Shown: positions 2,181 to 32,171 of the stretch, piece after piece
Layout of the letters: the number at the start of each line of letters is the position of its first letter
Numbering within the stretch: the first letter of the stretch is position 1
DNA from: an archaeon
GTDB lineage: Archaea; Thermoplasmatota; Thermoplasmata; Methanomassiliicoccales; Methanomethylophilaceae
DNA length: 42,590 bases
Direction of reading: 5' to 3'
NCBI GenBank assembly: GCA_024399155.1
Contig: JAKSHX010000005.1
Coordinates: forward strand, 1-42,590
The notes under the pieces: generated by a model
What the model was told of the DNA's origin: nothing
The model's database searches: none
What the model saw: only the letters and a program-made list of their open reading frames with translations
Program-made: the position numbers and the translations under genes

Positions 2181-2434
2181 TTAACGTTGTATAATGTTGT
2201 CCGATGAAACATCGCCCTTCCTGTTAGTTGTATCAACGTTCTTTTCGGTATTGTCATTTTGTTTTTGATATACCCGCTTTTTTAATAACTGAGTCGTTAT
2301 TAAGAGGCTTTTCCTCATCATTGGCACACTTCAAAAGTTGAAGAGCATGTTCGTTAATTGGTTTATAAACGGGTGCTTCATATCCCTCGAACACAGATAT
2401 AATTGATGTGTCGGATGGTGGGGTGTATGAGTCA
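2181..2434 (-). pseudogene. out-of-frame C-terminal extension of the TPR gene
   Basis: The TPR frame ends at a TGA (2434-2432) right after an A5 run. The +1 frame from that point is open for about 60 codons and reads like real protein (DSYTPPPSD, then EGYEAPVYKPINEHALQLL, ending AGISKTK at a TGA, 2256-2254). Shifting +1 again gives DNTEKNVDTTNRKGDVSSDN and so on to a TAA at 2183-2181. This last part resembles the tail encoded at 1-70. A one-base deletion at each point would fuse both segments to the TPR protein. It may be a decayed C-terminus, an assembly error, or less likely a recoded tail. Confidence 0.45.
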
Positions 2435-5400
2435 TTTTTCTGGTTCTTGCACCTGTATTTCCGTTTTTATCTTTGCCTTGATAGAAGATGTGCGTGTGGA
2501 TTCTTCAATGTTTGATATGTTATGTCTATCCGATGTAACAGTGATTAACTCATTCTCAGTAGGCTGTTTTGTCATAGATTGAGATTCGATTGTTGTCTCT
2601 GACACGTTCTTTATTTCTTTCTCATTTGTTGCTTCGATAGGTTTCTTATCAAACTTACCTGTGAAAGTAGGTTTTGGCATAACCAATGGTAAAACGGGCA
2701 TTGCAACAGTTTCCTTTGAATTAGCCATATTTAGTAATTCAGTAACTGTTTGCTTGACTCTGCTGTCAACGTTGTTATGTATACATTGATTGAGTATCTG
2801 ACTCAGCCCAGCTTTATTTTCTTTGGATGCAAATATTGTTGCCATCGCAATAATTGCTTCTGAGTGTGTCGGATCCACTTCCATAACTTGTTCAAGTATC
2901 TTTTCGGCTGATTGTTCTTCATTACGTTTCAAAAAAATAGCTGCTACCCTAACCATGGAAAAGGTATCAGTATTATCCATCTGATATGCGGATGTATAGC
3001 TATCAAGAGCGATATCGTCCATCCCTGTTACTTCCTGGCACATACCACATAGACGATATGTTTCAGATGTTTGTACTCCCAACTTTATAGCCGTCTCATA
3101 TGAAACGAGTGCATCAGAATAGTCTCCAAGAATCATGTGTGAATCTGCATTGAATTTCCATATGATAGGGTTAAAGTGCTCAATATTTGATTTTACCTCT
3201 TCGACAACGTCTAGTACAGCACTATGATTATCCATAGCCATGAGCGCAGATATCTTGAGAATATAAGAGTCAGAATCTGATTGATCCACACCTATTGCTT
3301 TATTCGCATACTCAAGCGATTCTTCTAGCATACCGTCATTAAGCATCATCTTTGAAAGATGTTGCAGAACCATCTTATCGTTAGGATTAATGGAAAGTGA
3401 TTCGGTAAGCGTAGCTCTCGTTTTTATGCTGTTTTCTGATATCTCTGCTTTCTTCATTAAATAGTTAACATTGCCTGACTGACGCAATTCATCATAAATT
3501 TTTTTAGCCATATCATAACTTTGTAATTTTACATATGCTTCTGCAAGAAAATTTTTGGTCGATATATCCTCAGGTCTAAAATCTAATATGGTCTTGCATA
3601 TAGATACTTCCTCATCGAACTTACCCTGAGCGTGATATATTGATCTCATCATGTCCAGGATCTCATAATCTTCATCACTGAGCTTATCCTTGCCGATATT
3701 TAAGTTAGCGAGAATGCCAATAGCTTCGTCTAAATTATTGGCTTTAATATGTGCTTTAGCGTATATAATCGTCGTTCTCCTATCATCCGGCGTGAAACTG
3801 AGTATATTTTTACATACTGTCTTTGTCGCTTCGGTGTCTCCTTCTATAAAATATAGGTTACGCAATGCCGCCATTATATCAAGATTAAGAGGTTCTATTT
3901 TGGACGATAATTCAGCAATTATTCTCGCTTCGGAAGGCCTTCCGAGTCTTAACAGTATATTTGCTTTGCGCATGAGTGAATAAACATTGTCTGGGTAAAG
4001 TAATATCACTCTGTTTAGAGATTTGATGGCTTCGCTAAATTCACCTATCTTTTCTTCAACTGCCGCTTTAGATATCCAATAAACAGGATTGTCCAAATCC
4101 ATCAGTACTGCCCTATCATACGAAATTTCAGCAGCTTCGTAATCCTCAACTTTTTCTTCAGCCATTCCTTTAGAATACCAGACTATCGGGTTATTGTGAT
4201 TGAGCTCTATTGCTTTAGTGTAAGATTCTATTGCATCATGATATTTTTCTATAGCATATTCCGCATTACCTTTGATCACCCACATATCTGCTAAATCACC
4301 GTAAATGTTGACGCATCCCGTTATGATTTCTACGGCATCCTTATACCTGACATTTTTGACTAGTGATGTTATAATCTGCATGAAAAGAGTTGCGTCTCTT
4401 TTTATCGATAACGCATGACGATAGGCATCCAGAGCCTCCCTATCTTTACCCATTTTTTCATAGATTATAGCAGAATCCTTCACGATCTCTGCATCGTTTT
4501 GATACAAATTTATGATATTTTGACACACCGCAAGTGCACCATCATAGTCCGGTGGATTTTTTAATTTTAGAGCGTCTTTTTTGAGGGCAAGCGCATCTCT
4601 ATTGTGTGGATGTTCAACGAGTATATCATCAATGTACTTTAGTGACTTGTCTATCTGATTCAATTTCATATAAATTTTAGATGTGTGAATCAAGCAGTCA
4701 ACGTCGTGTGGCATCTTCTTAATCGCTTTTCTAGCAAAAACACGAGCACTTACGTATCTTTCTGAAGCATAATCATTCTTTGATGAAAGTAGATCAAGGA
4801 TAGGATTCTTACTTTCCATCTCCCTTACTTTACTAATAAGACTAGATGCCTCGGAATGCATCTGTAGTTGGATTAGAGCAGAAATGCTTTTGACATAGGC
4901 ACCAAAGTCAGCATAGTCGCTGCACAGGTATGTGTTAATATATCTCATTAATCCAGATCTGTCAACTAATGCTACTTCAACCTCAATCATCAATTCTAAA
5001 AGTCTACGATCACAAATACATCTGTCTTCTAATCTCTTACATATAACCAGAGATTTTTCGTATTCCCCAGCAAGCAAATGTACTCTCGCTGTCTCCATAA
5101 GAATGGAAAAATTTTTGTTCTCACAAGCCTTGGAATAGTAGATCGTAGCCTGACTATAATTATTCTCACTGGCAGTTATCCTTGCAATGGCAAGATCGAT
5201 GTCACACTCCATGCCTTCACGAATCATTTTTTTGAGATTCATTTTAGCATTTGATCTGCTACCATTTCTCCATTCGTAGTATGCATTATAGAGTTCACAA
5301 AATCTACCTTCACCTGTACTGAATGATAAATCGTGCACATCGCCATTCATCACATCAGCAATCATTTTACGATATTTCCAACCACATCTTGGCTCAATTG

Positions 5401-5878
5401 TCTCCAATTCCTGGTATACAGGCATAAAACGATCATCGAATGAATGACACCTAATGAAATGCGATTTCGCCGATAATGTGTTATTTTCCGATATATCTAC
5501 CAAACCACGGTAATATTCCCATAGTGAAACGTCAGAAATCACTGTCATTTTATCGAGAATTAATTTAGCGGAATCATACTCCTTCATTTCGATGAGTTTC
5601 CCAGATACTTTTAAATAAGGAGCACTGCTCGTTGAACTACACTTGCTTAATAACTCAATAAAAATTTTTTTAGCTTCACTCGGAAAGTAAAGGTTGATAA
5701 GGTCGATTATTTTGCAGGCGATTTTCGGGTTTACAACCTTTTCGACAGATGTCATTATCTTACGAAATTTATCCGCATTTTTCTTATGACCTTTAATTGC
5801 AGCTGACTCTAGAGCGATAAGTTGCCTCCATATCTTTATGTCATTGTGTTTTGTGAGTATTGGGGTTTCCCCATCCAT
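2432..5878 (-). CDS. large tetratricopeptide-repeat protein
   Basis: An 1148-residue protein made almost wholly of TPR-like helical pairs. The clearest tandem 34-residue units lie at about residues 520-650, with motifs such as AIEKYHDAIESYTKAIELN and DYEAAEISYDRAVLMDLDNP. Less regular repeats extend from about residue 90 to 1040. The last 100 residues are low-complexity, rich in Thr, Glu, Lys and Ser. There is no signal peptide and no membrane segment, so it is probably cytoplasmic. TPR arrays are protein-interaction scaffolds; no partner can be read from the sequence. It starts at ATG 5878, about 100 bp from the divergent tRNA-Gly. The reading frame probably once ran further (see 2181-2434). 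Confidence 0.8.
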   Translation of the reverse strand: MDGETPILTKHNDIKIWRQLIALESAAIKGHKKNADKFRKIMTSVEKVVNPKIACKIIDLINLYFPSEAKKIFIELLSKCSSTSSAPYLKVSGKLIEMKEYDSAKLILDKMTVISDVSLWEYYRGLVDISENNTLSAKSHFIRCHSFDDRFMPVYQELETIEPRCGWKYRKMIADVMNGDVHDLSFSTGEGRFCELYNAYYEWRNGSRSNAKMNLKKMIREGMECDIDLAIARITASENNYSQATIYYSKACENKNFSILMETARVHLLAGEYEKSLVICKRLEDRCICDRRLLELMIEVEVALVDRSGLMRYINTYLCSDYADFGAYVKSISALIQLQMHSEASSLISKVREMESKNPILDLLSSKNDYASERYVSARVFARKAIKKMPHDVDCLIHTSKIYMKLNQIDKSLKYIDDILVEHPHNRDALALKKDALKLKNPPDYDGALAVCQNIINLYQNDAEIVKDSAIIYEKMGKDREALDAYRHALSIKRDATLFMQIITSLVKNVRYKDAVEIITGCVNIYGDLADMWVIKGNAEYAIEKYHDAIESYTKAIELNHNNPIVWYSKGMAEEKVEDYEAAEISYDRAVLMDLDNPVYWISKAAVEEKIGEFSEAIKSLNRVILLYPDNVYSLMRKANILLRLGRPSEARIIAELSSKIEPLNLDIMAALRNLYFIEGDTEATKTVCKNILSFTPDDRRTTIIYAKAHIKANNLDEAIGILANLNIGKDKLSDEDYEILDMMRSIYHAQGKFDEEVSICKTILDFRPEDISTKNFLAEAYVKLQSYDMAKKIYDELRQSGNVNYLMKKAEISENSIKTRATLTESLSINPNDKMVLQHLSKMMLNDGMLEESLEYANKAIGVDQSDSDSYILKISALMAMDNHSAVLDVVEEVKSNIEHFNPIIWKFNADSHMILGDYSDALVSYETAIKLGVQTSETYRLCGMCQEVTGMDDIALDSYTSAYQMDNTDTFSMVRVAAIFLKRNEEQSAEKILEQVMEVDPTHSEAIIAMATIFASKENKAGLSQILNQCIHNNVDSRVKQTVTELLNMANSKETVAMPVLPLVMPKPTFTGKFDKKPIEATNEKEIKNVSETTIESQSMTKQPTENELITVTSDRHNISNIEESTRTSSIKAKIKTEIQVQEPEK

Positions 5879-29196: not shown

Positions 29197-30225
29197 ATGG
29201 GAGTTAATCTCTCTAGTTTAATCGAACCGGAAAATATAGAACTCTTAGACCTCTGCGGGAAGACTATTGCAATAGATGCATACAACACAGTATATCAGTT
29301 CCTTTCAATAATTAGACAACCAGATGGTCATCCTCTCACTGATAGCAATGGAAGAATAACGTCACATTTATCAGGGCTCTTTTATAGAACAGTTAGTCTC
29401 ATTGAGGCAGGAATAGAACCTTCCTTTATTTTTGATGGTAAACCACATGAACTTAAAATGAATACACTGGTTGAACGAAAAAAAAGAAGAGAAAACGCAG
29501 AGAAAGAATGGGAACAAGCCGTCAAAGATGGAGATAAAAGAAGGGCATTTACCAAAGCCCAACAAACATCCAGAATAACTCCAGAAATCCTGGATTCATC
29601 AATAAAATTACTGCATCTCATGGGTATCCCAGTAGTATATGCACCAAATGATGGAGAAGCTCAGGGAGCATATATGTGCTCTAAAGGTGATGTCTGGGCA
29701 TCAGCATCCCAGGATTTTGATTCATTATTATTCGGAGCTCCTAAGCTTGTAAGGAATATAACAATTACAGGAAGAAGAAAAATTCCTGGAAAAGATCTTT
29801 ATAGGGATGTTAAAACAGAACTTATTGACTCTGCTGAATTCTTAGAAAAATTAGGTATAACAAGAGAGCAACTAGTAGATATTTGCATACTTATGGGAAC
29901 AGATTTTAACACTGGTATATACGGAATAGGCTCTAGGAAGGGACTTAAACTCATTAAAGATTATGGTAATATTGAAAATGTGCTGAAACACATAGGTCAA
30001 GAAATTCCGATGTACCAGGAGGTCAGAGATATTTTTCTTAATGGAGAATATTCCAACAATTATGACCTCAGGCTCAAAGAAATGGACCGTGACGGCATTA
30101 TAGAATTTTTAACTGACTATAATTTTTCAAAGGAACGTGTAGAGTCTACTTTAGATAAAATAGACGACTCTAGAAAAATCAATATCGCCAAAAAACAACA
30201 AAAATCTCTTGACACTTGGTTTTAA
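29197..30225 (+). CDS. fen: flap endonuclease 1 (FEN1)
   Basis: A 342-residue structure-specific nuclease of Okazaki fragment maturation and repair. The N (XPG-N) region contains IAIDAYNTVYQF and SFIFDGKPHELK. The I (XPG-I) region has VYAPNDGEAQGAYM and ASQDFDSLLFG, supplying acidic metal ligands. A helix-hairpin-helix follows (ILMGTDFNTGIYGIGSRKGLKLIKDYG). The C-terminal QKSLDTWF is a PCNA-binding PIP box. SD GAGGTG lies just before ATG 29197. Its stop abuts that of the convergent DUF126-Nudix gene with no gap. Confidence 0.97.
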   Translation: MGVNLSSLIEPENIELLDLCGKTIAIDAYNTVYQFLSIIRQPDGHPLTDSNGRITSHLSGLFYRTVSLIEAGIEPSFIFDGKPHELKMNTLVERKKRRENAEKEWEQAVKDGDKRRAFTKAQQTSRITPEILDSSIKLLHLMGIPVVYAPNDGEAQGAYMCSKGDVWASASQDFDSLLFGAPKLVRNITITGRRKIPGKDLYRDVKTELIDSAEFLEKLGITREQLVDICILMGTDFNTGIYGIGSRKGLKLIKDYGNIENVLKHIGQEIPMYQEVRDIFLNGEYSNNYDLRLKEMDRDGIIEFLTDYNFSKERVESTLDKIDDSRKINIAKKQQKSLDTWF

Positions 30226-31038
30226 TCAGTTATTCAATAGTTTCTTAATAATTTCGACCGTTTTGTCTACAAGATCTAGTTGAGCCAGTTCGTTATAGTC
30301 TACAAATTTATATTTATCATTCTCGAAATTTGGCTTTGCATTTTGATTTTCTATGTAAAATAAAAACGGGATAATTTTCCAGATAGTTCTGTCCTCTCTG
30401 ACAAAAATTGGATCTATTGTTTTAACAGAATGACTGAATTTTATACCAGTTTCTTCATAAATCTCTCTCATTGCAGCAAACTCTGGCTTTTCATTTGACT
30501 TTATCTTTCCTGAGCAGAGTCCCCACGTGCCGGAATGTGAATACATATTTGGTGAACGCTTAAATGTCAAAATTTTTTCGTTCATTATGATTACTGAAGA
30601 AACACATTCAATAACTTCTATATCTTTAATTTCAACAGTACCGGAATTGGCGTCAACAACAACTTTGTCGCCATCATTAATTAAGTCTGTATCAATCATA
30701 TCAACCATTGGAATAGAGGATATCACTGCGCCGGTAGCGATTATAATTTCGGCAAATGTATTGATTATTGCTTTTGGTGCGTTGCCGTGAACTTTTAGGT
30801 CATACATAACAAAAGAACCAACCGTGCTACCTTTTCCACTGGGAAATACCAATATTTTGTCAGCAACACTACATCTATCTCCCCTTATCTTTAAATCGCC
30901 AGTTACTGGGTCTACTTCACCAAGAAAACTTAATGGCTTATCCAATTTGAGTACAGTACCAGTAACTATTCCTCTGCAGATGCTCCTTCCGGGGATCTTC
31001 AGTATACCACCTTCAGTAATTGTGTAATATCTTTGCAC
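30226..31038 (-). CDS. phosphomevalonate dehydratase small subunit (DUF126) fused to a Nudix domain
   Basis: A 270-residue fusion. Residues about 10-138 are the aconitase-X swivel domain (DUF126): IPGRSICRGIVTGTVLKLDKPLSFLG, then FPSGKGSTVGSFVMYDL with the conserved Ser, and APKAIINTFAEIIIATGAV. Residues about 145-270 are a Nudix hydrolase with an intact box, GX5EX7REIYEETGI (starting GKIKSNEKPEF). The small subunit completes phosphomevalonate dehydratase with the large subunit, whose gene overlaps it by 40 bp. The Nudix partner should act on a diphosphate; whether it works on pathway intermediates such as isopentenyl diphosphate or is a housekeeping MutT-like unit is unknown. Confidence 0.85.
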   Translation of the reverse strand: MQRYYTITEGGILKIPGRSICRGIVTGTVLKLDKPLSFLGEVDPVTGDLKIRGDRCSVADKILVFPSGKGSTVGSFVMYDLKVHGNAPKAIINTFAEIIIATGAVISSIPMVDMIDTDLINDGDKVVVDANSGTVEIKDIEVIECVSSVIIMNEKILTFKRSPNMYSHSGTWGLCSGKIKSNEKPEFAAMREIYEETGIKFSHSVKTIDPIFVREDRTIWKIIPFLFYIENQNAKPNFENDKYKFVDYNELAQLDLVDKTVEIIKKLLNN

Positions 31039-32171
31039 ATTACTTTCTGTGAACAGAGAGTTTGAAGATAATTGCCGGCTTTACAAGAATTTGTACCAGT
31101 ACAAGAAAACGATTTCTCAATGGGAGAAACAACCATACAGGTATCTGTCAAAACTAGTCCGAATTCTTCTATGATTTTTACGTCTTCATGACATTTTTCT
31201 TTAACTGCACTGGAAGTGCAAAACCATATCTCAACATCTTTTTTCTTTTTCTTACTCCTAATCATCAATGCAATTTCATGTATCTCTTTCTCAGTTAAAT
31301 GAGGACATCCTAACGAAATTAACTGTATATCATCAGTTGTATTCAACTTGTCATAAGCCTCCTTTAATTCATCTTTTCCAACATAAATCACTTCTAATTC
31401 ATCAATATCGAAATCTGCATATTCAGGCGTTACACCATCAACATGAAACATCGCCACTGAGCCTGATGATGCCATAGCTCCAGCCATAGTTTTAGCTTCC
31501 TCTAACCCAGGTTTTATTCCTCTAAAATAAGGAATCTTATTACCTATAATCGAACCCACTGCCTGCCCTAGTAATGAATATTCGAATACAGATCCACCAA
31601 TGTTTACATCGATAACTACATCAGGCTTTCTATTCTTCTTCAAATGTAATCCATAATTTGCGGTTTTTCCTAAAATTGCCGCAGCTAATGCTCCGGGTCC
31701 ACCTTCCCTATTAGTTCTGGCCCCTATCATAGAATTAACGTACGATAATGCAGAAGATTCTGCCCAGGCGACATGATCCCCTAACTTGGGTACATTTACA
31801 CCAGTATACGGTGTACAAGAACACGTGGTGTTGACTCCCATGGATTTGTATAATTCTATTATACGTAGCTGTTTCTTGGCAAAATCCTCAGATATATGCA
31901 TTTCTGACCATCTATTTCTGTCCATTCCGACAGGATTGAGCGTTGATTTTACCTTTACTTTGGCGCCACCTTTTACAACATCTTCTAAATAAATGAGTCC
32001 CCCATCACCAATGGTTTTGTACGATGCACCTGACAAATGAGCTGAAGTAATATTTACAAGATCCTCTGCACCGTATATTTTACCGATTGCAGTTATGAGT
32101 TCCATTGCTTTGCGGGCACTTTCTCCTGACTCACCTTTAAGGATCGCCTCTTCATCTTTCGTGAGGTTCAT
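30999..32171 (-). CDS. phosphomevalonate dehydratase large subunit (aconitase X catalytic domain, DUF521)
   Basis: A 390-residue protein of the aconitase-X family. In archaea the two-subunit enzyme dehydrates mevalonate 5-phosphate to trans-anhydromevalonate 5-phosphate in the archaeal mevalonate pathway (described first in Aeropyrum). Signatures visible are TSAHLSGASYKTIGDGGL, NPVGMDRNRW, TCSCTPYTGVNVP with cluster Cys, SSALSYVNSMIGARTNREGGPGA, and late SCTGTNSCKAGNYL. The iron-sulfur Cys set is complete by eye. Overlap with the small-subunit gene shows co-translation. The expected decarboxylase (UbiD-type) and isopentenyl phosphate kinase are not in the window. Confidence 0.9.
   Translation of the reverse strand: MNLTKDEEAILKGESGESARKAMELITAIGKIYGAEDLVNITSAHLSGASYKTIGDGGLIYLEDVVKGGAKVKVKSTLNPVGMDRNRWSEMHISEDFAKKQLRIIELYKSMGVNTTCSCTPYTGVNVPKLGDHVAWAESSALSYVNSMIGARTNREGGPGALAAAILGKTANYGLHLKKNRKPDVVIDVNIGGSVFEYSLLGQAVGSIIGNKIPYFRGIKPGLEEAKTMAGAMASSGSVAMFHVDGVTPEYADFDIDELEVIYVGKDELKEAYDKLNTTDDIQLISLGCPHLTEKEIHEIALMIRSKKKKKDVEIWFCTSSAVKEKCHEDVKIIEEFGLVLTDTCMVVSPIEKSFSCTGTNSCKAGNYLQTLCSQKVMCKDITQLLKVVY

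Follow-up and report, generated by a model that had tools for sequence, protein, structure and literature searches.

The small subunit of phosphomevalonate dehydratase (PMDh) and a Nudix domain are encoded here as a single archaeal protein. We propose that this is an old and stable fusion that probably unites a PMDh subunit with an autonomous MutT-like pyrophosphohydrolase, one that most likely acts on nucleotides and does not perform a step of lipid synthesis. Across about 200 genomes each half has been kept or lost without the other, so that the fused hydrolase is probably a separate housekeeping enzyme. While the component families are known, the architecture and the reciprocal decay of its halves appear to be undescribed: the searchable open literature on AcnX and PMDh, on the mevalonate pathways of archaea and on the Nudix clan, a scope outside which subscription papers and domain databases fall, does not mention the fusion.

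The fusion gene and its partner

The window is the whole stretch of DNA analysed, 42,590 nucleotides in length; handles beginning with G, C, L and f denote genomes, contigs, loci and families. The features that matter here are as follows.

30999..32171, minus strand: AcnX, the large subunit of phosphomevalonate dehydratase, 390 aa; PF04412, E=2.5e-146
30226..31038, minus strand: fusion ORF, swivel (PMDh small subunit) plus Nudix, 270 aa, GTG start
30622..30999, minus strand: swivel domain, aa 14-139; phmmer match to 7cnr_B over aa 14-138
30811..30837, minus strand: GKGSTVGSF motif, aa 68-76, placed by alignment
30235..30612, minus strand: Nudix domain, aa 143-268; PF00293 at aa 148-264, E=7e-13
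30442..30510, minus strand: Nudix box GX5EX7REUXEEXGU, aa 177-199, GKIKSNEKPEFAAMREIYEETGI, exact fit
30397..30399, minus strand: Arg214, found in all aligned members of the fusion family (100%)

The original prediction described a swivel (DUF126) domain joined in frame to a Nudix domain with an intact catalytic box, in a gene overlapping that of the large subunit, and all of this is borne out. The ORF runs from swivel through to Nudix with no internal stop, carries PF01989 (AcnX_swivel_put, aa 36-112, E=5.5e-26, Pfam) as well as PF00293, fits the hydrolase box consensus exactly, and by its coordinates shares 40 nt with the AcnX ORF. The GTG at 31038 is the sole usual start codon upstream of the swivel domain; the alignment with the Thermococcus kodakarensis (Tk) homologue begins at about residue 14 of the fusion ORF, and the start position is uncertain by some 13 residues. 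On the opposite strand an ORF at 29197-30225, FEN-1-like by eye, converges on the fusion ORF, the two stop codons abutting with no gap (window 30223-30228). Near the left end of the window the minus strand encodes a BspA-type leucine-rich-repeat protein (78-1871) and a 1148-aa TPR protein (2432-5878).

Both PMDh subunits have clear counterparts of solved structure. The AcnX neighbour is homologous to TkAcnX along its whole length (7cnr_A, the closest solved chain, E=1.4e-103, aligned over aa 1-387), and the chain closest to the swivel is TK1248 (7cnr_B, E=6.4e-32, phmmer); a Foldseek search with the swivel half of the AlphaFold2 model likewise returned 7cnr_D and 7cnr_B. Ser71-Thr72-Val73 of the swivel align with Ser62/Thr63/Val64 of the T. 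kodakarensis small subunit, in which the motif residues are Ser62(S), Thr63(S) and Val64(S) and Ser62(S) lies near C2 of the substrate (PMC8184944). The swivel thus has the fold and the Ser-Thr-Val catalytic motif that define a small subunit of AcnX type II. By homology, the swivel half would complete the active site together with AcnX and supply the catalytic serine, and the enzyme would dehydrate mevalonate 5-phosphate to trans-anhydromevalonate 5-phosphate. Like the known PMDh small subunits (TK1248, 7CNR/7CNS; Aeropyrum pernix Ape_2089), the protein has a GKGSTVGSY/F swivel encoded directly after, and overlapping, the AcnX gene. Those subunits, however, are stand-alone proteins of about 130-140 aa, whereas here the Nudix domain adjoins with almost no linker.

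The Nudix domain of the fusion also looks catalytic. By analogy, E192, E195 and E196 of the box would be the metal-binding glutamates, and each is kept in 97-98% of about 107 aligned fusion-family proteins. Arg214 is present even where the box is dead or the swivel has decayed, and is absent from the stand-alone Nudix relatives compared. The AlphaFold2 model, built from a seven-row alignment, has a mean pLDDT of 78.8, with the Nudix half mostly at 85-93, and Foldseek matched this half to Methanosarcina mazei MutT (3grn, E=6.4e-11).

Spread and origin of the fusion

The fusion is present in 60 of 61 relatives and in all 26 genera, nearly always at full length; organism-named records among these relatives are Methanomassiliicoccales, Methanomassiliicoccaceae or Thermoplasmatales assemblies. 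Among 200 genomes of the class it recurs in most families, usually beside AcnX. The search for swivel-Nudix architectures that had been suggested, carried out here over Thermoplasmatota, therefore revealed a fusion that is neither unique to this assembly nor split by a stop in its homologues. An artefact of assembly or gene calling might be suspected in a genome as fragmented as that of the window (176 contigs). The same architecture in 60 of 61 relatives, several of them single-contig genomes, excludes chance or misassembly; we rejected an assembly artefact and regard the probability of any such artefact as negligible.

In sister classes of the phylum, the swivel is a separate protein encoded beside AcnX, and a stand-alone Nudix protein of about 130-170 aa is encoded away from it. 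The latter is 39-48% identical to the Nudix half, with neither a swivel nor Arg214, and is the probable donor of the fused domain. In the swivel tree, 68 of 70 fused swivels form one clade (98/93) together with two swivels of family f18 that have no Nudix; two f30 sequences group with stand-alone swivels on a branch as long as 1.32, a placement that may be artefactual or reflect a second fusion. Our reading is that a single main fusion, of a swivel gene to a stand-alone Nudix gene, took place close to the base of the class Thermoplasmata and that losses followed.

Both halves are under purifying selection. In pairwise comparisons within AcnX-bearing lineages, omega ranges from 0.03 to 0.29 in the swivel and from 0.06 to 0.22 in the Nudix domain; an outlying swivel value of 0.43 comes from one near-identical pair with dS of only 0.04. 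The suggestion that the join is a passive accident holds to the extent that a historical joining fits best, but the product is stable and selected and is not recent.

Reciprocal decay of the two halves

The swivel can be lost while the Nudix domain is kept. In 17 genomes without AcnX (7 in f13, 10 in f14; absence here meaning below the profile cut-off) the Nudix domain is intact and the catalytic motif of the swivel is lost, and in f13 pN is 0.38-0.43 in the swivel half against 0.13 in the Nudix half. In nine more genomes the swivel of the fusion ORF has lost its motif or is missing, the Nudix domain is kept, and another swivel is available. This substitute stands alone beside AcnX in G143, G137, G109, G170, G084 and G074, is separate and beside a divergent AcnX in G064, and is a second copy of the fusion in G097. 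The remaining genome, G200, might have been taken for an exception, with AcnX present and the swivel decayed; this was ruled out, since its AcnX ORF of about 505 codons (L176, C26) carries an N-terminal swivel of its own and is thus a fusion of the reverse kind. G069 is kept outside these counts because its AcnX runs off the contig end. In the Nudix tree, swivel-less and decayed forms arise from within the fused ones at several points, and the starred branches force at least four changes. G084 also encodes another AcnX, divergent and accompanied by a swivel of its own (L042, C1:1558500-1564000), probably a different dehydratase.

Loss has also taken place from the other side. G002 and G003, both from the window's own genus, have RGVREKF and RGIKEKF where the catalytic REUxEExG is expected, and these two small, incomplete genomes retain the swivel, AcnX, UbiX, UbiD and IDI-2 despite the dead box. 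The box is degenerate in G116 as well, and in one of the two G097 copies, the other being intact. The f18 swivels nested in the fused clade have no Nudix domain behind them. More widely, AcnX occurs without a strong Nudix match in f7, f12, f16, f18 (including single-contig genomes), f21, f26 and part of f11, and a strong Nudix match without AcnX in f13 and part of f14. Family f22, probably Thermoplasmatales, has neither; Thermoplasmatales use mevalonate 3,5-bisphosphate decarboxylase (PMC5177888). A single absence in an incomplete genome is no proof, but the pattern repeats across lineages. The halves thus decay independently: the swivel keeps its motif where AcnX has no other partner, and the Nudix box is maintained in its own right.

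AcnX, UbiX, UbiD and the fusion are found together in almost all genomes of the order. The window's assembly (G000, 96.6% complete) has no match to UbiX (TIGR00421) or to the UbiD family (PF01977), both of which are present in three further genomes of the genus; the gap may be one of assembly or a true loss of the AMPD step. It suggested a correlation in this genus between loss of UbiX and decay of the Nudix domain, but none was found: the boxes of G002 and G003 are dead in the presence of both UbiX and UbiD. AcnX, a stand-alone swivel and UbiX lie in tandem at G084:C1:2575587-2577698 and G074:C1:1618571-1620682, an arrangement that ties PMDh directly to prenyl-FMN synthesis at the level of the genome.

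What the Nudix half may do

Nudix substrates cannot be read from sequence. The best profile and structure matches of the fused domain are MutT, NudG, NudI, Ap4A hydrolase and M. mazei MutT, while no NCBIfam Nudix equivalog (MutT, NudG, NudI, RppH, ADPR-ase) is reached, all falling far below their cut-offs. The domain resembles MutT-like proteins (3GRN, NudG/ORF135, NudI, Ap4A hydrolase 3I7U) in fold, in its canonical box and in being matched best by them; it differs from them in its 15-26% identity in the structure matches, in lying below every equivalog cut-off and in its clade-specific Arg214. The genes around the stand-alone relatives offer a weak clue. In a single family the Nudix gene directly follows purQ; otherwise the neighbours are a PIN-ATPase gene in another family and a UbiA-type prenyltransferase on the opposite strand only. 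We infer that both halves are active, and the profile and structure similarity, with this weak neighbourhood evidence, suggests a nucleotide substrate. The Nudix half would accordingly be a metal-dependent pyrophosphohydrolase, most likely engaged in house-cleaning of nucleoside di- or triphosphates. Two facts speak against parts of this reading: the fusion has been retained beside AcnX across the entire order, which is not required of a purely accidental join, and YmfB/NudJ, an enzyme that acts on DMAPP, is among the nearest folds.

Of the conceivable roles of the Nudix half in isoprenoid synthesis, supply of DMAP is the best candidate. DMAP can serve UbiX as a prenyl donor in making prenylated FMN, the cofactor of the UbiD-type decarboxylase AMPD, the enzyme next after PMDh, and IP is the product of AMPD. 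The Nudix half might turn DMAPP (or IPP) into DMAP (or IP), and the fusion would then couple the pathway to the supply of its cofactor or to the control of flux. E. coli NudJ (YmfB), among the top structural matches (Foldseek rank 3), does convert DMAPP to DMAP for prFMN (PMC12359138), and UbiX requires DMAP or DMAPP depending on the species (PMC6541611). The coexistence of AcnX, UbiX, UbiD and the fusion in nearly the whole order, and UbiX adjoining the stand-alone swivel in G084 and G074, also fit. But NudJ shares only the Nudix fold and about 23% identity with the domain and is not fused, and the genome patterns here track neither AcnX nor UbiX: f13-g43 keeps an intact Nudix domain where AcnX and UbiX are both missing, AcnX and UbiX occur with no strong match to this Nudix family in f16 and in the complete genomes of f18, and in G002 and G003 the box is dead although UbiX and UbiD are present. 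With Nudix presence dissociated from UbiX/UbiD in both directions, DMAP supply was rejected as the general reason for the fusion, and we consider the coupling doubtful. Most of the contrary cases lie outside the window's order, and the two inside it are the small, incomplete G002 and G003; for this order alone we thus keep a narrower version, itself unlikely, in which the fused Nudix domain acts on a C5 prenyl diphosphate, turning DMAPP into DMAP or IPP into IP, for example, and links prenyl-FMN supply or flux to PMDh. Family f1, to which the window belongs, has a fast-evolving Nudix domain, with a long branch in most members; most f1 domains retain the box without the DWEH and TVPxL motifs of their relatives, so that the substrate there may differ. 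In the narrower version, Arg214 and the altered f1 pocket motifs would mark a change to a C5 prenyl substrate.

It is also conceivable, though quite improbable, that the Nudix half serves as a sensor or as a scaffold, binding a nucleotide or a prenyl diphosphate and tuning PMDh, with turnover not its main role. Non-catalytic Nudix domains are known in multidomain proteins, the domain has long been retained beside AcnX in most of the class, and the protein is full length where the box is degenerate (G002, G003, G116 and one G097 copy). Binding alone, however, needs none of the catalytic glutamates that almost the whole family keeps, and the Nudix half persists where AcnX is gone. As for the proposal that the domain is isomerase-like, type I IPP isomerase is indeed a Nudix-fold protein. 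But isomerase boxes read GX5EX7RRX2YEXGU or longer, while the fused domain has a hydrolase box, and type II IPP isomerase (TIGR02151) is matched in all 41 genomes of the order (39 above cut-off; in the window's genome at C112:11556-12557), so that the suggested check of whether species with the fusion lack other IPP isomerases came out negative. Type I (TIGR02150) rises above its cut-off in none of the 41, the window's genome having no match whatever; the type I enzyme shares the Nudix clan with the fused domain and differs from it in the box. We rejected the type I role, whose likelihood is very slight. The tie between a pyrophosphohydrolase and isoprenoid synthesis that had been predicted from the overlap and the fusion thus stands for gene order with AcnX, which is old and widespread; as a necessary role of the Nudix domain in the pathway it is contradicted by the reciprocal losses.

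Implications

A widely conserved fusion is normally taken as evidence that its parts share a pathway. With two autonomous modules, as we favor here, this inference fails, given that the fusion has decayed from either side. If a prenyl diphosphate were nonetheless the true substrate, the Nudix half would instead be a site of control, or a step of cofactor supply, in the mevalonate pathway of archaea. The decayed lineages constitute a natural series of single-domain mutants for testing both halves.
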